Positions 7,876 to 40,000 of a stretch of DNA of 48,675 nt are shown here, in pieces. The position numbers were made by a program, and so were the translations under genes. Numbering within the stretch: position 1 is the first letter of the stretch; each line of letters opens with the position of its first letter. Source of the DNA: Candidatus Poribacteria bacterium (GTDB lineage Bacteria; Poribacteria; WGA-4E; WGA-3G); contig JAPOZO010000055.1 in the NCBI GenBank assembly GCA_026706025.1, forward strand, positions 1 through 48,675, in the 5' to 3' direction. The notes beneath the pieces are model-generated. The model saw only the letters and a list, made by a program, of their open reading frames with translations, had not been told where the DNA came from and did not search any database.

Positions 7876-7944
7876 ACCGAAACCTTGAGTGCATTTTCAC
7901 GAAGTTTGTGAATGAATCTGTGCGATTATGAAAGGCTGTTTTGT

Positions 7945-9294
7945 ATGGAAACCATGAATATTAAGTCAAAGACGATATTCACGGGTGACAATTTACCTAT
8001 AATGCGTGGGATAAATAGTGAATCAGTAGATTTAATCTACCTTGATCCACCTTTTAATAGCAATGCCAACTACGCAGCACCTATAGGTTCAAAAGCTGCT
8101 GGTGCGGAATTCAAAGATACGTGGACGCTTGATGATGTTGACAATGCTTGGCTTGATTTAATTGAGACAAAACACCCCGCACTCAACCGAGTTATCCACG
8201 CGGCAATGACGGACTCCGATAAATCTTACCTCATTTACATGGCTGCTCGGTTACTGGAAATGAAGCGTATTCTGAAAAATACTGGCAGTATCTACCTACA
8301 TTGCGATACGACAATGAGTCATTATCTCAAGTTAGTTATGGATGCGGTGTTTGGGAAGGGAAACTTTCGGAATGAGGTTGTTTGGAAACGAACCGCAGCA
8401 CATAATGATTCTGCAATTTATGGGAGTGTTCATGACACTATACTCTACTATTCAAAAGGTGATACCCCCACCCTTAATGAGCAATATCAACCCTATTCTG
8501 ACGAGTATCTCAAGAGGTATAAGCATACGGATGAAAATGGTAAAAGATTTTTGGACAGAGACCTAACCGCTGGCTCTTTAAGTGGCGGTGGGTATCAGTA
8601 CGAATGGAACGGCATTACTAAAATTTGGCGGTGTCCGTTTACCACTATGCAGGAATATGATAAATCTGGTAAGTTATACTACACTCGCAATGGAACACCG
8701 AGATTAAAGCAATTTTTAGATGATATGCCGGGTGTGCCTGTTCAAGATGTTTGGATTGATATACCCCCGATAAACTCACAAGCCAAAGAAAGGGTTGGCT
8801 ATCCAACCCAAAAGCCACTTTCCCTCTTAGACCGCATTATCAAAGCCTCGTCTAACAAAAGCGATGTCGTTTTTGATCCATTTTGCGGTTGTGCGACAAC
8901 TCTCGTCGCAGCAGATAGGCTTCAACGGGATTGGATAGGTATTGACATATCAGAGAAAGCATCTGAATTAGTTGTTGAACGGATTAAAACAGATCAGGGA
9001 CTGTTTGAAAATGTCATCAAACGCACGGATATTCCGAGACGCACAGATTTAGGTGATATTCTGCGATATAATCACCCTAAAAACAAGACCCAATTATATG
9101 GAGAGCAAAGCGGGTATTGTAACGGATGTGGTACACACTTTGAGAAACAACACCTTGAGATTGACCATATTATCGCAGAAAATGTTGGAGGGACTGACCA
9201 TATTGAGAACCTTCAACTGCTTTGTAGCCATTGTAACAGAGTTAAAGGTGAACGCGGGCAAGAATATCTTATCTCAAGGCTGAACAAAGGATAA
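7945..9294 (+). CDS. DNA methyltransferase fused to a C-terminal HNH endonuclease domain
   Basis: The protein combines an amino-methyltransferase with a nuclease. The order of MTase motifs is the beta class: the catalytic DPPF (in LIYLDPPFNS) comes first, and the SAM-binding motif FDPFCGCATT with WIGIDIS lies about 275 residues later, after a target-recognition-like region. The last ~60 residues form a zinc-ribbon HNH nuclease: CxxC, EIDHIIAENVGG, then ENLQLLCSHCNRVKG. One polypeptide may therefore both modify and cut DNA. The frame is open from ATG 7912; ATG 7945 is chosen because AAAGG lies nine bases upstream and homologous MTases begin just before the TGDNL strand. The gene is visibly A+T-richer than its neighbours, suggesting horizontal transfer. 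It is followed by a TIR-like gene. Confidence 0.88.
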   Translation: METMNIKSKTIFTGDNLPIMRGINSESVDLIYLDPPFNSNANYAAPIGSKAAGAEFKDTWTLDDVDNAWLDLIETKHPALNRVIHAAMTDSDKSYLIYMAARLLEMKRILKNTGSIYLHCDTTMSHYLKLVMDAVFGKGNFRNEVVWKRTAAHNDSAIYGSVHDTILYYSKGDTPTLNEQYQPYSDEYLKRYKHTDENGKRFLDRDLTAGSLSGGGYQYEWNGITKIWRCPFTTMQEYDKSGKLYYTRNGTPRLKQFLDDMPGVPVQDVWIDIPPINSQAKERVGYPTQKPLSLLDRIIKASSNKSDVVFDPFCGCATTLVAADRLQRDWIGIDISEKASELVVERIKTDQGLFENVIKRTDIPRRTDLGDILRYNHPKNKTQLYGEQSGYCNGCGTHFEKQHLEIDHIIAENVGGTDHIENLQLLCSHCNRVKGERGQEYLISRLNKG

Positions 9295-9342
9295 ATCGTG
9301 AAACCAGATTTAACAAAGCCCGAATCTATTAACTACGAAAAC

Positions 9343-9372
9343 AAAGGTAGTGGAAACCACTCTACTACCTTT
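9343..9372 (+). terminator. Hairpin between the MTase-HNH and TIR-like genes
   Basis: AAAGGTAGT (9343-9351) pairs with ACTACCTTT (9364-9372) across a 12-base loop and is followed by TTACAT. It may attenuate transcription between the two genes, or serve as the terminator of the first. Confidence 0.45.
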
Positions 9373-9410
9373 TACATAACTAACTTTTCATGAATGCACA
9401 AGGATGTATT

Positions 9411-10250
9411 ATGAAAGACAAAGAACTTCCAAAGTTACTTAAGAGTAGAGCAGAAGCCTCTAAAAAGATACAGGATCGGATTAACGAGGGGAAAAGACTT
9501 ACTGAAATTTCAGCAACTTCAAAAGATGATCTGACCAATCTTAAACATGAGTCCCGAAAATGGTGTGATTACAACAAAACTCTTTTTGACACTCTTTTTG
9601 ATATATCACCTTTACCAGATTCACATGGGGTTTCTTGGGGAAGAATGGCATGGGTCATAGGTCGTGATTACACAGCTGATGACATAAAAGATCATAAAAA
9701 AGACATAATATCATGGTTTAATCAACTTCAAAGCATATTAGGACAATTGGATTTATACGAAGTATTACCAAAGAATACAAAAGAACCTTTGGAGCATAGT
9801 ACTGCAAATAATAAAAAAGCGAGAATATTTATTGCACATGGTCGTTCACATTTATGGCGAGAATTTAAGGATTTTTTGGTGGAAACATTAGGTCTTGAAT
9901 ATGAAGAATTTGATCGTATTTCAGCAGCAGGAAAATCTATCAACAGTCGTATAAAAGAAATGTTAGACAAATCATGTATGGCATTCTTGATAATGACAGG
10001 CGAGGACGAACACTCAGACGGTTCAGTACATGCACGTCAAAATGTAATCCATGAAATAGGAAAGTGTCAAGATAGATTTGGTTCTGAAAGAACAATCATT
10101 TTACTGGAAGAAGGTTGTGAGAAATTCAGTAACATTGATGGGATTATATACATTTCATTTACTAATGGGAAAATAAAGGAAACTTTCGGAGATGTTGTTA
10201 GTGTTTTGAAACGAGAATCCATAATTAGAATAGAACTTTGTACTCAGTGA
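9411..10250 (+). CDS. TIR-like predicted nucleotide-binding protein (PF10137/CAP12-type domain)
   Basis: The protein has 279 residues. The N-terminal ~130 are helical and unrecognised (it opens MKDKELPKLLKSRAEASKKI). The C-terminal half (about 137-272) has the features of the TIR-like family used as effectors in CBASS/Pycsar-type immunity: an ARIFIAHGRS first strand, a GKSINSRIKEMLDKS helix, the AFLIMTGEDE strand, the diagnostic HARQNVIHEIG, and a closing IDGIIYISF. Characterised members degrade NAD+ when activated; that activity here is an inference. ATG 9411 is chosen over 9390 because AAGGA lies about seven bases before it. It is A+T-rich and follows the MTase-HNH gene. No cyclase gene is adjacent, so the activator is unknown. 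Confidence 0.8.
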   Translation: MKDKELPKLLKSRAEASKKIQDRINEGKRLTEISATSKDDLTNLKHESRKWCDYNKTLFDTLFDISPLPDSHGVSWGRMAWVIGRDYTADDIKDHKKDIISWFNQLQSILGQLDLYEVLPKNTKEPLEHSTANNKKARIFIAHGRSHLWREFKDFLVETLGLEYEEFDRISAAGKSINSRIKEMLDKSCMAFLIMTGEDEHSDGSVHARQNVIHEIGKCQDRFGSERTIILLEEGCEKFSNIDGIIYISFTNGKIKETFGDVVSVLKRESIIRIELCTQ

Positions 10251-21033: not shown

Positions 21034-21867
21034 TTACTGGTGGGATTTTAGTTTACCCCATGTTGTTGCTAACTTATTGGCTGCTTCAACAGCGAGGACT
21101 TCATCGGTAAGGGTGACAAGCCCCGTTTTTTCAGAATTCTTTCCGTGGACGATAGAGTGGGTGTACCATCCGCTCCATCCCTTTTGACCACCCTGCCCAG
21201 CGGCTTTATCACCATCGTTGACACAGATACCGAGGCCGAACTGATCTCCGTCGCTGAATTTTTTGCCTTTTACTTGCAATTCTTCAGCGGTGAATCGGAG
21301 TTCGTAGTAGGTTTTCTTTTCACCTTCGTTTCGGACAACGGCGATGTCATCACCAGGGGCGATACCTGCCCCACCGGGAGCCTCATTCAAAGCGCCAGGG
21401 AGTATATCTTTCGCCTTGTCATCTAAACCGATATTGTAGAGAAACATCTGTATGCCAGCGGAGCGTTTGCCGCTCATTTCAAAGGCGAGTTGTGCGCCAT
21501 CACCGTTCCATGCGGCAGCGGCTGCGTGTTCGTGTTCATCGTCTGTGACAATAAGCCCAATATATACGGCTTTTGAATCCCATACGATCATGAAACAGGT
21601 TTCGTGGTCGTCGGCACCCTTCCAATTGCCACCGCCGTGTACCTGAAAGACATTGCCTTCATATTCAACACCGCAGAAAGGTTTTCCGTCGGTGCCTGTG
21701 ACTGTGTCAAGGATACCCTCCCATTCGCCAAGATCACCATCAATTTTAACGTCAACCCCTGTGAGGGCTTTATATTCGTCATGGGTTTTACTACGCCACT
21801 GTGCATCTGCTACCGTGTTTATGAGTAAAGCAGCTAGGGCTATTGCAATCCAAACATAGTTTTTCAT
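21034..21867 (-). CDS. Exported CBM9/DOMON-like protein with C-terminal KLATTWG tag
   Basis: The 277-residue protein has a signal peptide (MKNYVWIAIALAALLINTVADA) and a single beta-sandwich domain resembling the family 9 carbohydrate-binding fold (KIDGDLGEWEGI…, then KAVYIGLIVTDDEHEHA, GDGAQLAFEM, YYELRFTAEELQV, FGLGICVND). The last 16 residues (ANKLATTWGKLKSHQ) form a tag that recurs at the end of the unrelated exported protein at 35003. It is the third gene of a minus-strand operon, 15 bases after the PQQ-propeller gene. The ligand is unknown; assignment rests on the sequence pattern. The start is preceded by CGGAG. Confidence 0.8.
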   Translation of the reverse strand: MKNYVWIAIALAALLINTVADAQWRSKTHDEYKALTGVDVKIDGDLGEWEGILDTVTGTDGKPFCGVEYEGNVFQVHGGGNWKGADDHETCFMIVWDSKAVYIGLIVTDDEHEHAAAAAWNGDGAQLAFEMSGKRSAGIQMFLYNIGLDDKAKDILPGALNEAPGGAGIAPGDDIAVVRNEGEKKTYYELRFTAEELQVKGKKFSDGDQFGLGICVNDGDKAAGQGGQKGWSGWYTHSIVHGKNSEKTGLVTLTDEVLAVEAANKLATTWGKLKSHQ

Positions 21868-29274: not shown

Positions 29275-30408
29275 TTAATCTCCTGTTGAAGAAATTTCTG
29301 CCGCTTGGTTATCTGGTTCTTGCCAGTGTGCATATTTCTGAAGGGTCCGTATATCAATATTTAACGATTCAGCTGCCTTGCGTAGCGATGTGTGTTGCTG
29401 AATACGTCTTTGGGCAACCGCTCGTAGGATTTGATTCTGGTTCATATCCCCTATATTGAGAGACTCTATTTTTCTACTCATTCTCGGTAGATAGGAAACC
29501 TGAGAACTATGCCACTGTCCAGTTACGCGTGTTGAGAGATCATACATAATAGCATGCCGCGTTTCTGGTTGGAGTGTTTCCCAAATTGCGTGTTGCGTCT
29601 CTGGCGGGAGTGTCTGCCAGACAGAAGCGAGCGTCTGGACAAAATCTGGGTAAATATCCGGAAAATCTTTGCGCTCAAGTCTATCTGTTGTTGCGAGCGC
29701 GATAGCCGTTTGGATAGTGCTCCGAAGTTGCCGGATATTGCCAGGCCATGCTGCCTGTTCAAGAAGTTTGAGTGCCTCTGCGGTAATCCCTGTAATTCTT
29801 TTTTTGTAAACAGCACTGAACTCGGTAATAAAAGCAGTCACTAAGGGGGCAATGTCTTCTGTGCGTTCTCGGAGCGGGGGTAGATGAAGCATCATCCCCT
29901 TAAGCCGGTAGTAGAGATCTTCCCGAAATTCTTTTTTAGCGACTGCTTTCGCAATATCTCTGTTTGTTGCAGCGATAATGTGAACATCGACAGTCAAGAC
30001 TTCATTTCCACCGAGCCGTGTGAATGTAGCCGTGTCCAAAACGCGCAAAAGCATTTTCTGTGCGTCCAAGGACATTTCGGGTACCTCATCTAAAAAGAGG
30101 ATCCCCCCGTCTGCAGCTTCAAATGCGCCTTGACGTTGACGGATCGCGCTTGTAAACGCCCCTGCTTCATGTCCAAAGAGTTCACTCTGGAGGAGTTCAG
30201 CGGAGAATCTACCGCAATTGATGGCGATAAACGGTTTACACTTCCGTGGGCTGGTTTCATGTATGTATTTTGCGATGCCTTCCTTACCGACACCAGTTTC
30301 GCCGGTAATGAGGATCGGGATGTTTGATTTTACAACTTGTTGAATTGTTTCGTAACTCGCCTGCATGGGTGCTGATGGCAATTCGATAAATGCCGTCTGC
30401 TGGTTCAT
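29275..30408 (-). CDS. Sigma54-type AAA+ transcriptional activator without sensor domain (paralogue 1)
   Basis: A 377-residue bacterial enhancer-binding protein. The AAA+ domain starts almost at once: Walker A GETGVGKE (36-43), Walker B GGILFLDE (101-108), and the FREDLYYRL arginine-finger region (161-169). The sigma54-contact loop reads GAFTSA (83-88) where the consensus is GAFTGA. A linker of about 80 residues contains a short repeat (WQTLPPETQHAI / WETLQPETRHAI) that I do not recognise. The C-terminus (about 325-365) is a Fis/HTH_8-like DNA-binding helix set (LRKAAESLNIDIRTLQKYA). No receiver, PAS or GAF domain is present, so the signal input is unknown. AAGGAGC precedes the start. A close paralogue lies upstream. 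Confidence 0.9.
   Translation of the reverse strand: MNQQTAFIELPSAPMQASYETIQQVVKSNIPILITGETGVGKEGIAKYIHETSPRKCKPFIAINCGRFSAELLQSELFGHEAGAFTSAIRQRQGAFEAADGGILFLDEVPEMSLDAQKMLLRVLDTATFTRLGGNEVLTVDVHIIAATNRDIAKAVAKKEFREDLYYRLKGMMLHLPPLRERTEDIAPLVTAFITEFSAVYKKRITGITAEALKLLEQAAWPGNIRQLRSTIQTAIALATTDRLERKDFPDIYPDFVQTLASVWQTLPPETQHAIWETLQPETRHAIMYDLSTRVTGQWHSSQVSYLPRMSRKIESLNIGDMNQNQILRAVAQRRIQQHTSLRKAAESLNIDIRTLQKYAHWQEPDNQAAEISSTGD
29879..30216. repeat. 338-bp tract identical to 31464-31801 (duplicated activator core)
   Basis: From GGTAGATGAAGCATC to GAATCTACCGCA I find no mismatch between the two genes (offset 1585). Mismatches begin immediately outside, at 29878 and 30217. The tract codes for about residues 65-177, including the GAFTSA loop, Walker B and the arginine-finger region. 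Confidence 0.9.
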
Positions 30409-30889: not shown

Positions 30890-31993
30890 TTACTCTTTTG
30901 GTTCCTCCCATTGTGCGTATTTTTGCAAGGTTCGGAGATCAATATCTAATGATTCAGCTGCTTCGCGTAAGGATGTATGTTGCTCAATACGCCTCTGGGA
31001 GACTGCTCGTAGAATTTGATTCAGGTTCATGTTTTCGATATTGAGAAATCCGCCTTCTTCGCTCGTTTTCGGCATGTAGGCAGCTTGCAAGGTGCGCCAT
31101 GGTTCTGGGGCGCGCGTTGAGACTTCATGCGTAATTGCATGCTGTATTTCTAATGGAAGTGTTTCCCAGATTGCATGCTGGGTTTCCGAGGGGAGCGTCT
31201 GCCAGATAGAGATAAGCGTCTGAACGAACTCAGGATATATATCTGGGAAATCTTTGAGTTCGAGTTCATCTATTGTTGCGAGTGCGACAGCTGTTTGGAC
31301 AGTGCTCCGAAGCTGCCGGATATTGCCAGGCCATGCTGCCTGTTCAAGACGCTTGAGTGCCTCTGAGGCGATGCCGGTGACGTTTTTCCCATATTCGGTG
31401 CTGAACTCGATAATAAAAGCCGTCACTAAGGGTGCAATGTCTTCTGTGCGTTCGCGGAGTGGAGGTAGATGAAGCATCATCCCCTTAAGCCGGTAGTAGA
31501 GATCTTCCCGAAATTCTTTTTTAGCGACTGCTTTCGCAATATCTCTGTTTGTTGCAGCGATAATGTGAACATCGACAGTCAAGACTTCATTTCCACCGAG
31601 CCGTGTGAATGTAGCCGTGTCCAAAACGCGCAAAAGCATTTTCTGTGCGTCCAAGGACATTTCGGGTACCTCATCTAAAAAGAGGATCCCCCCGTCTGCA
31701 GCTTCAAATGCGCCTTGACGTTGACGGATCGCGCTTGTAAACGCCCCTGCTTCATGTCCAAAGAGTTCACTCTGGAGGAGTTCAGCGGAGAATCTACCGC
31801 AGTTGATGGCGATAAACGGTTTATCTCTTCGTAAACTACTTTCATGAATATATCTTGCGATGCCTTCCTTACCAACACCGGTTTCGCCAGTAATGAAAAA
31901 GGGGATTTTTGCCTTTACGACTTGCTGGATTATGTTATAAATTGCCTGCATAGGTGCTGATGGTAATTCAATAAATGTCGTCTGTTGGTTCAT
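30890..31993 (-). CDS. Sigma54-type AAA+ transcriptional activator without sensor domain (paralogue 2)
   Basis: A 367-residue paralogue of the gene at 29275, with the same architecture: AAA+ from the N-terminus, GETGVGKE Walker A, GAFTSA in place of GAFTGA, GGILFLDE Walker B, a roughly 80-residue linker with WQTLPSETQHAI / WETLPLEIQHAI repeats, and an LREAAESLDIDLRTLQKYA helix-turn-helix. About 338 bases (31464-31801) are identical to the other copy, while the flanking parts have diverged at many positions. AAAGGAGC lies just upstream of the ATG. Confidence 0.9.
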   Translation of the reverse strand: MNQQTTFIELPSAPMQAIYNIIQQVVKAKIPFFITGETGVGKEGIARYIHESSLRRDKPFIAINCGRFSAELLQSELFGHEAGAFTSAIRQRQGAFEAADGGILFLDEVPEMSLDAQKMLLRVLDTATFTRLGGNEVLTVDVHIIAATNRDIAKAVAKKEFREDLYYRLKGMMLHLPPLRERTEDIAPLVTAFIIEFSTEYGKNVTGIASEALKRLEQAAWPGNIRQLRSTVQTAVALATIDELELKDFPDIYPEFVQTLISIWQTLPSETQHAIWETLPLEIQHAITHEVSTRAPEPWRTLQAAYMPKTSEEGGFLNIENMNLNQILRAVSQRRIEQHTSLREAAESLDIDLRTLQKYAQWEEPKE

Positions 31994-35002: not shown

Positions 35003-35707
35003 TTAGAATCCGCTTTTGAGCGCGCCCCAAGTTGTCGTCAACTTGTTTTTCGGTTCAACAGCCGTCTGTGGGTTGGTTTCGTTCGGATCGAATTCGATAT
35101 CTGTTGTCGCGAAGATTTGGTCAATGTATGTGCCATCTTCGCGATGTGCGATGTGGAGTGTGTGCTCACCGGCGGAAAGTTCGACGGGAACCGGATCGTC
35201 GCCGTGCTGGGTGAGTTCCAATCCTTCAAAAGGGCCGTTGCGTGAGTTCAATCGGAACCAGACCCAGTCCGTCGTATAGTTTTCCCGGAGTTCGCCTGCT
35301 TCATAGAAATCCCAGATATTCATGGGGCCGTCATTGGTAGAGGTAACATCGCCGTCGGCTGTATCGAGTGCCCAGTAACAGGAGTTATCGGCAACTGACG
35401 GCGCAATCACACGTCCCCAGAAATGCCAATCATCTCCGTCGACTGAGAACTCGTATTTCACCCAGTCCCCGCCATCGTTTCCAGCCCCGTTGGCTGAACC
35501 GATGAAAGCACCGCCTGATGCTTCGGCGACGGTGTAATCGTCTACGCCTTCACCTGCGTTGCCCGGTTGGTCGGATGGGGTTTCAAAGGTTTGGAATTTT
35601 TCGCCATTGATAGCGTCATAGTTTTCCGCTTCCCAACTAATGTATTTTTGCGCGAATGCGGGTGAAACGATCAGGCTTAGTACTGTTAGTAAAATGAGAG
35701 TTCGCAT
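35003..35707 (-). CDS. Exported CBM6/35-like protein with C-terminal KLTTTWG tag
   Basis: The 234-residue protein has a signal peptide (MRTLILLTVLSLIVSPAFA) and a single beta-sandwich domain like carbohydrate-binding families 6/35: WEAENYDAI at the start, GGDWVKYEFSVDGDDWHFWGRV, YTTDWVWFRLN, and the closing LSAGEHTLHIAHREDGTYIDQIFAT. The last residues, VEPKNKLTTTWGALKSGF, match the tail of the exported protein at 21034. ATG 35707 is the start: AAGGAGG lies six bases upstream. The in-frame TTG at 35713 is within that spacer. It is flanked by its own promoter-like sequence and a terminator, so it is probably a single-gene unit. Confidence 0.82.
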   Translation of the reverse strand: MRTLILLTVLSLIVSPAFAQKYISWEAENYDAINGEKFQTFETPSDQPGNAGEGVDDYTVAEASGGAFIGSANGAGNDGGDWVKYEFSVDGDDWHFWGRVIAPSVADNSCYWALDTADGDVTSTNDGPMNIWDFYEAGELRENYTTDWVWFRLNSRNGPFEGLELTQHGDDPVPVELSAGEHTLHIAHREDGTYIDQIFATTDIEFDPNETNPQTAVEPKNKLTTTWGALKSGF

Positions 35708-37893: not shown

Positions 37894-38769
37894 ATGTTCA
37901 ACGCAAACCCTTTCCGCCAACCCGGGCAATGGTACCGAGGCAATACACATAGTCATAGTACAGAATCCGACGGTCAACTTTCCATGTCGGATCGCTTCGC
38001 GGCATACCGTGAGGCAGGCTACGATTTCCTCGTGCTAACAGATCATCGTAAGGTTAATGACGTGAGTGCTTACAGTACGTCAGACTTTCTGGCGATATCA
38101 GGAAGCGAAGTGCATCCTGAAAACCCATACGGTGGTGCGATACATCACTTTGTAGCGATTAATATTCATGAGGCAATCAATTGTGCGAAGATGCATCCGA
38201 ACGCAGTGCTTGATGAGATTAAGGCGCAGGGCGGCGAAGCCGTTTTATGTCATCCGTATTGGTCTGGGCACACCATTACAGATTATCTGCCATTGCGGGG
38301 TTACTTCGCCATTGAGGTCTACAACGACGGCTGTATGGAGATTGGCAAAGCGTTTTCAGAACAAGCTTGGGACGATTTGCTGGATAGAGGTGGTCCTGTT
38401 CTCGGCATCGCTTCGGATGATTCACACGGCACCGATCACGATTGCTTCCACGGATGGATTATGGTCAAGGCAGAGGAACTGACGATTGCAAGTATCATGG
38501 AAGCACTCAGGACGGGCGCGTTCTACTCTACAATGGGACCCGAAATCACAGATATGGCGTTAGAAGATAATGAGGTAACGGTTAAGTGTTCGCCAGCGCA
38601 ATCCATCGTTTTTAAAGCGGAGTGCAGTCGCGGTCGGCGGATTCTTCCGTCGGATGGTGAACTCTTGACGGAGGCGATCTATAGCGTTCCGAACGGTGCT
38701 AAATACGTTCGCGTTGAAATAACAGACGAAACCGGCAAAAAAGCTTGGTCGAACCCTTTCTTTTTCTAA
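37894..38769 (+). CDS. PHP-domain metal-dependent hydrolase (CehA/McbA-like), paralogue 1
   Basis: The 291-residue protein has PHP-type metal-binding motifs: GNTHSHSTESDG at the N-terminus, the aspartate-histidine pair in FLVLTDHRKV, ISGSEVHP, LCHPYWSGH, IEVYND, and IASDDSHG. The C-terminal 60 residues form a beta-rich extension. PHP proteins of this CehA/McbA group hydrolyse phosphoesters or related bonds; the substrate is unknown. AAGGAG precedes the ATG by seven bases. It was duplicated together with its promoter region; the second copy starts at 39125. Confidence 0.9.
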   Translation: MFNANPFRQPGQWYRGNTHSHSTESDGQLSMSDRFAAYREAGYDFLVLTDHRKVNDVSAYSTSDFLAISGSEVHPENPYGGAIHHFVAINIHEAINCAKMHPNAVLDEIKAQGGEAVLCHPYWSGHTITDYLPLRGYFAIEVYNDGCMEIGKAFSEQAWDDLLDRGGPVLGIASDDSHGTDHDCFHGWIMVKAEELTIASIMEALRTGAFYSTMGPEITDMALEDNEVTVKCSPAQSIVFKAECSRGRRILPSDGELLTEAIYSVPNGAKYVRVEITDETGKKAWSNPFFF

Positions 38770-39035: not shown

Positions 39036-39124
39036 AGAACTGGACGTGCAGGACGCGCCAACAGGTTCATAAATCAGCATCTCCTAATAACTTGAGTACA
39101 TTATTACGGAACAAGGAGCCAGTT

Positions 39125-40000
39125 ATGTTCAACGCAAATCCTTTTCAGCAACCGGGACAATGGTACCGTGGGAATACACATAGCCATAGCACAGAATCCG
39201 ATGGGCAGCTTCCTATGGCGGATCGCTTCGCGGCATACCGTGAGGCAGGCTACGATTTCCTTGTGCTAACAGATCACCGTAAGGTTAACGATGTGAGTGC
39301 TTACAGTACGTCAGACTTTCTGGCAATATCCGGCAGTGAAGTGCATCCGTCAAATCCTTACGGCGGTGCGACGTATCATTTTGTAGCGATTAACATTCAT
39401 GAGACGATCAATTGCGCGAAGATGCATCCGAACGCAGTGCTTGATGAAATCAAAGCACAGGGTGGTGAAGCCGTTTTGTGTCACCCTTATTGGTCCGGAC
39501 ACACGATTACAGATTATTTGCCGTTACGCGGGTACTTCGCCATTGAGGTCTATAACGACACGTGTATGGGCATCGGCAAAGGTTTCTCGGAACAGGCATG
39601 GGATGACTTGCTGGATAGAGGGGGCCCTGTCCTCGGCATCGCTTCAGATGATGCACACGGCACCGAACACGACTGCTTTCACGGGTGGATTATGGTCAAA
39701 GCGGAAGAGTTGACGATTGAGAGTATCATGAAAGCGTTCCGAACAGGTGCGTTCTATTCTACGCTCGGTCCCGAAATTGAAGATATGGCGTTAGAGGATG
39801 GCGAGGTAACAGTCAAATGTTCACCGGCACAATCCATCGTTTTTAAAGCGGAGTGCAGCCGGGGTAGGCGGATCCTTCCATCCGATGGCGAACTCTTGAC
39901 GGAGGCGACCTATAGCGTTCCGAACGGTGCTAAATATGTTCGCGTTGAAATAACAGACGAAACGGGTAAGAAGGCTTGGTCAAATCCGTTTTTTTTCTAA
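39125..40000 (+). CDS. PHP-domain metal-dependent hydrolase (CehA/McbA-like), paralogue 2
   Basis: The 291-residue protein is nearly identical to the product of the gene at 37894 and has all its metal-binding motifs (THSHSTESDG, TDHRKV, SEVHP, CHPYWSGH, ASDDAHG). Differences are scattered and mostly conservative. The open frame extends to 39092, but ATG 39125 has AAGGAG eight bases upstream and aligns with the start of the paralogue. It is followed after 35 bases by a GT9 glycosyltransferase gene. Confidence 0.9.
   Translation: MFNANPFQQPGQWYRGNTHSHSTESDGQLPMADRFAAYREAGYDFLVLTDHRKVNDVSAYSTSDFLAISGSEVHPSNPYGGATYHFVAINIHETINCAKMHPNAVLDEIKAQGGEAVLCHPYWSGHTITDYLPLRGYFAIEVYNDTCMGIGKGFSEQAWDDLLDRGGPVLGIASDDAHGTEHDCFHGWIMVKAEELTIESIMKAFRTGAFYSTLGPEIEDMALEDGEVTVKCSPAQSIVFKAECSRGRRILPSDGELLTEATYSVPNGAKYVRVEITDETGKKAWSNPFFF

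Follow-up and report, generated by a model that had tools for sequence, protein, structure and literature searches.

A short C-terminal tag on unrelated exported proteins of Poribacteria, with a possible link to type IX secretion

Introduction

The signals recognized by the type IX secretion system (T9SS) are folded domains to which SprA and PorV bind (PMC10994853). Some of these C-terminal domains (CTDs) are short, such as those of 43 to 55 aa in Prevotella intermedia (PMC11969387), and in the HBP35 protein of P. gingivalis the last 22 residues of the CTD are required (PMC3120885). CTDs are thought to contain separate secretion and targeting signals, and in Flavobacterium, shuttle proteins steer substrates to their final locations (PMC12618676). 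In Poribacteria, Kamke et al. (2014) reported sorting domains of the TIGR04183 type but detected no structural genes of the Por system, and the pathway was left open (PMC3909097). In the literature that we searched, we found no paper describing T9SS genes in Poribacteria or the C-terminal tag that is the subject of the present report.

Results

Two tagged proteins in one contig. The window (i.e., the whole 48,675-nt stretch analyzed here) is contig C55 of a 6.27-Mb Candidatus Poribacteria genome in 103 contigs. It encodes two exported proteins which, according to a preliminary description of this DNA, have a common tail behind domains that do not resemble each other. Both minus-strand translations do end in this tail (Table 1), and the bodies of the two proteins proved to be unrelated. 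BLAST clustering places them in separate groups, and the 277-aa protein has a CBM9_1 match while the 234-aa protein has no match in Pfam. Tagged homologues of the former (45 to 61% identity) occur in other Poribacteria, and the homologues of the latter are likewise small tagged proteins. An AF2 model of the 234-aa protein was of such low confidence (mean pLDDT, 55.5; below 50 for tag residues 212 to 234) that its fold was judged unusable. No model in Pfam or NCBIfam covers the tag, including in an NCBIfam search of both window proteins at E values of up to 1, and when the tagged proteins of the genome (83 in number) were compared with TIGR04183, there was one weak match (E of 0.012), whose place in the protein is undetermined.

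Table 1. Positions of the tagged proteins, their signals, and two related features elsewhere in the same genome (G000)
Feature	Position	Strand	Basis or remark
Tag copy 1, AVEAANKLATTWGKLKSHQ followed by stop	21034..21093	minus	C-terminus of the CBM9-like protein; translation and genome-wide pattern
Tagged exported 277-aa protein, CBM9-like domain at residues 79-254	21034..21867	minus	Pfam PF06452 (CBM9_1), E 3.4e-9
Signal-peptide-like N-terminus MKNYVWIAIALAALLINTVADA, signal peptidase I type	21802..21867	minus	Sequence and heuristic, no SignalP
Tag copy 2, AVEPKNKLTTTWGALKSGF followed by stop	35003..35062	minus	Translation and genome-wide pattern
Tagged exported protein of 234 aa with a beta-rich body; start codon ATG at 35707	35003..35707	minus	CBM6/35-like according to the preliminary description
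Signal-peptide-like N-terminus MRTLILLTVLSLIVSPAFA of the 234-aa protein	35651..35707	minus	Sequence and heuristic
FG-GAP/ASPIC protein, tag then directly T9SS-type CTD	L279:3490-5367 (G000:C99)	minus	
SprA/Sov-like T9SS translocon, 2217 aa	L277:12049-18702 (G000:C63)	minus	Tagged LamG-like gene directly upstream

Several other genes of the window were noted in passing. Two adjacent paralogous genes for sigma-54-type activators of ca. 370 aa each lie at 29275-30408 and 30890-31993, and two near-identical tandem genes at 37894-38769 and 39092-40000 resemble PHP-domain metal-dependent hydrolases. The interval 7912-10250 holds a gene that resembles DNA methyltransferases and has an HNH-like motif at its C-terminal end; in the gene that follows, the C-terminal half is similar to nucleotide-binding, TIR-like effector domains.

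The tag across the genome. In the genome to which the window belongs, the pattern TWGx[L/I/V/M/F]K has 119 matches versus 1 for a reversed-pattern control, and the stricter TTWG pattern has 88 versus 0; this excludes chance. The expectation that further proteins of the genome would carry the tail was thereby borne out: at 94 of the 100 sites listed, an ORF terminates in the complete tag, V-x-[P/A]-x-x-K-L-x-T-T-W-G-x-[L/I]-K-x(1-11)-stop. At 88 of these sites, the ORF is 100 aa or longer and the tag lies no more than 11 residues from the stop (median, 3), and 6 are consensus copies in short ORFs. As for the remaining listed sites, 2 are chance matches in short ORFs, and the 4 matches that are not C-terminal all lack the consensus. 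Column counts for 83 intact bearers gave V(71)-[E/D]-[P/A]-x-[G/D]-K(70)-L(71)-[A/T]-T(63)-T(80)-W-G-x-[L/I]-K; the search pattern itself dictates W, G, and K, and most of the searches also demanded the T that precedes W. These columns contain no hydrophobic stretch, in agreement with the earlier view that the tail lacks a membrane helix. Third-base identity at identical residues is only 39% between tag copies, and this variation in codons indicates that conservation acts at the level of the peptide.

Once the tag and signal peptide had been trimmed, the 83 bearers separated into 17 unrelated BLAST clusters, which include LamG, 3-keto-disaccharide hydrolase, PD40, CBM9, and CBM35-like types; the largest linked cluster (LamG/3-keto-disaccharide hydrolase) holds 49 of the 83. 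The tail is thus not limited to one homologous family, given at least 17 unrelated clusters. Pfam matches included Laminin_G_3 (36), 3keto-disac_hyd (13), PD40 (11), and F5_F8_type_C (2), with others to LTD, CBM9_1, PA14, and DUF4960. The bearers are mostly small (220 to 350 aa) carbohydrate- or matrix-binding proteins and propeller proteins. By a hydrophobicity heuristic, N-termini resembling signal peptides were found in 77 of 85 tag-only ORFs versus 44 of 153 control ORFs, an enrichment of the kind that the preliminary description had proposed looking for; the contrast is approximate, because the controls contain some spurious ORFs. A lipobox-like motif was present in only 2 of the 83 bearers.

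Distribution. The stricter TTWG pattern occurs in all 85 Poribacteria genomes (22 genera) in up to 89 copies, with controls near zero, and in tag loci drawn from 30 genomes, the tags lie no more than 10 residues from the stop. When a stringent tag pattern was run against one genome per species, 78 of the 80 matches listed were titled Candidatus Poribacteria, and among these listed matches there are two loci outside the phylum. One (L154) is a lone tag on a short contig of a deltaproteobacterial metagenome-assembled genome (MAG) and is probably contamination. The other (L134) belongs to a 1.9-Mb MAG titled Pseudomonadota (RHO2_bin_21, G085) with four TTWG matches, whose tagged signal-peptide proteins (L134, L384, L385, and L386) are of families unlike the poribacterial ones; horizontal transfer and a chimeric MAG are both possible. 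A search for SprA in this MAG gave no match, which would fit a role of the tag independent of T9SS unless the MAG is incomplete or chimeric. We regard it as near certain that the tag itself is real, modular, and phylum-wide.

Relation of the tag to T9SS-type CTDs. The CTD motif NPFNPETW is likewise found in 85 of 85 genomes, and the window's genome has 63 copies of it versus 119 tag matches. When every ORF at the retrieved loci was considered, the consensus tag stood at the C-terminus 226 times, directly before a CTD 26 times, and nowhere else. The arrangement in which the tag directly precedes a CTD recurs in 53 of the 85 genomes, in ASPIC/UnbV, WD40-like, and other proteins. The two signals are usually separate, since in 58 of the 61 CTD proteins extracted from the window's genome, the CTD is preceded by neither a tag nor anything similar to one, and LamG, PA14, and PD40 bodies are found in both protein sets, bearing the tag in one and the CTD in the other. 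In an AF2 model of one ASPIC-tag-CTD fragment, the tag (residues 92 to 108) is a disordered linker (pLDDT below 50) between the ASPIC domain and the CTD, and the fold of the CTD corresponds to that of the C-terminal region in P. gingivalis PorU (Z of 11.0 and rmsd of 2.4 over 92 residues). The idea that the tag is part of the CTD fold was rejected on the strength of this model. In 28 proteins which also have a CTD, the V and K of the tag are more than 90% conserved, which argues that the tag does something that the CTD does not.

T9SS-type machinery. Among the things that had been suggested for follow-up was a co-occurring secretion gene or protease, and homologues of SprA, PorV, and PorU are indeed present in all or nearly all of the relatives. 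A SprA homologue was detected at E of ≤0.001 in 84 of 85 Poribacteria genomes and in 0 of 14 control genomes, as an ORF of ca. 2,200 aa with collinear matches to TIGR04189. The curated NCBI cutoff was exceeded in only one genome; the whole protein from the window's genome gave an E value of 1.2e-47, under that cutoff. A profile search against PDB sequences yielded no match, which leaves TIGR04189 as the basis for assigning the protein to SprA. The gene immediately upstream of sprA is a tagged one in two genomes of the genus. PorV-family barrels exceed the cutoff in 85 of 85 genomes (ca. 16 per genome); such barrels occur also in bacteria that lack T9SS. Peptidases of the C25 (PorU) type are found in 84 of 85 genomes at about 3 proteins per genome, and the three encoded in the window's genome were hits to NF033707, a T9SS sortase model, at E values of 1e-103 to 1e-120, slightly below the cutoff. 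For the motor protein GldM, there was a weak match in 1 of 85 genomes and none above the cutoff, and a divergent motor would escape this search. At the loci examined, no tag lies beside a PorV or PorU gene, and clustering of the flanking ORFs returned only tagged, metabolic, and regulatory families, with no obvious receptor or protease. The occurrence of T9SS-type sprA, porV, and C25 genes in nearly all Poribacteria genomes is new with respect to the report of Kamke et al. (2014).

Discussion

Like the type A CTD of T9SS (TIGR04183/PF18962), the tag is a C-terminal element of Sec-exported proteins from many unrelated families, lacks a membrane helix, has a conserved Lys near its end, and occurs in genomes with T9SS-type genes. 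Unlike the type A CTD, which is a beta-sandwich of 43 to 80 residues, it is only ca. 15 to 20 residues long, is predicted to be disordered (pLDDT below 50 in both models), has in its aligned columns neither GxY nor the other CTD motifs of PMC11969387, and can precede a CTD as a separate segment. It resembles the PEP-CTERM, GlyGly-CTERM, and LPXTG signals in being short, C-terminal, and carried by dozens of exported proteins per genome; however, those signals contain a transmembrane helix with basic residues behind it, and the tag has no such helix. Encapsulin cargo-loading peptides are also short and C-terminal, with a G-x-L-K ending superficially like that of the tag. Their cargo is cytoplasmic, whereas the tagged poribacterial proteins have signal peptides. 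Neither its sequence nor its fold makes the tag a T9SS CTD, yet it may act in a similar way.

The interpretation that we favor, with a probability of roughly 0.45, is that this is a modular, helix-free C-terminal sorting tag of Poribacteria which acts at the outer membrane and is probably linked to T9SS. From the two window proteins alone, the preliminary description had proposed a modular sorting signal that has no membrane helix and is conceptually akin to T9SS CTDs; the clusters, signal peptides, and machinery described above lend this support, and the action of the tag remains an inference. The same is true of the receptor, the mechanism, and T9SS-dependent export, for none of which is there direct evidence from binding or localization. 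In the few proteins that have both elements, the CTD would drive export and would then be cut off by a PorU-type peptidase, leaving the tag as the mature C-terminus; in this way, the tag would act as T9SS signals do, although it is no CTD itself. By further inference, it could be a targeting signal to which one PorV paralogue would bind. Points that weigh against the link to T9SS are the failure to find GldM, the scores below the curated cutoffs for all but one SprA match and for the three PorU-type proteins compared, the missing CTD motifs, the occurrence of PorV-family barrels in bacteria without T9SS, and the lack of tags next to the PorV and PorU genes at the loci examined.

The chief rival, which we consider somewhat unlikely, is docking in the envelope without any involvement of T9SS: the tail would bind an unidentified receptor, whether periplasmic or associated with peptidoglycan or an S-layer, that holds the proteins in the envelope, and the T9SS genes would merely coexist. 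The tag-bearing RHO2_bin_21 without a SprA match, the position of the tag outside the CTD fold, and the 58 of 61 CTD proteins with no tag before the CTD all speak for such docking, but it sits poorly with the fact that the tag directly precedes T9SS-type CTDs in several unrelated proteins and has no other internal position, and with the finding of either signal on the same body families. Phyletic evidence does not help here, because tag and T9SS-type genes occur together in every Poribacteria genome and so offer no contrast.

It is decidedly less probable that the tag is a recognition motif at which a PorU-type sortase of the C25 family cuts the protein, inside or beside TTWG, and links the resulting C-terminus to a glycan of the cell surface. 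Enzymes for this are at hand (each genome has ca. 3 C25 proteins, and those of the window's genome resemble PorU), and the tag sits where CTD cleavage sites sit, in the flexible linker before the CTD (PMC11969387). Set against this, a general PorU cleavage motif of CTD proteins is disfavored because most CTDs are without a preceding tag, and proteins with the tag alone would have to cross the outer membrane in some other way. The tag could also be no more than a remnant, without a function of its own, of the N-terminal edge of a CTD that has been lost, as its direct junction with the CTD in 53 of 85 genomes might suggest; such a vestige would decay, yet the peptide is strongly conserved over 17 clusters and 85 genomes despite variable codons, and we think this reading very improbable. 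Almost no credence attaches to an artifact, be it the common tail of one homologous family or a repeat at the DNA level. Its one support is the linked cluster with 49 of the 83 bearers; the 16 other clusters, the freely varying codons, and the 119 matches versus 1 in the control run counter to it, and the total of 17 clusters together with the codon variation refutes it.

A broader and more tentative proposal is that the tag represents an undescribed class of short, disordered, helix-free signals which marks a phylum-wide secretome (dozens of proteins per genome) and is read by dedicated PorV-family shuttles of an undescribed T9SS with a divergent motor. Poribacteria are abundant uncultured symbionts of sponges, and in the genome studied here, a second, previously unrecognized C-terminal tag marks a larger set of proteins than do CTDs. 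This raises the question of how small a T9SS-linked signal can be, and, with the tag and T9SS-type genes now found, the surface secretome of these symbionts becomes predictable from sequence.
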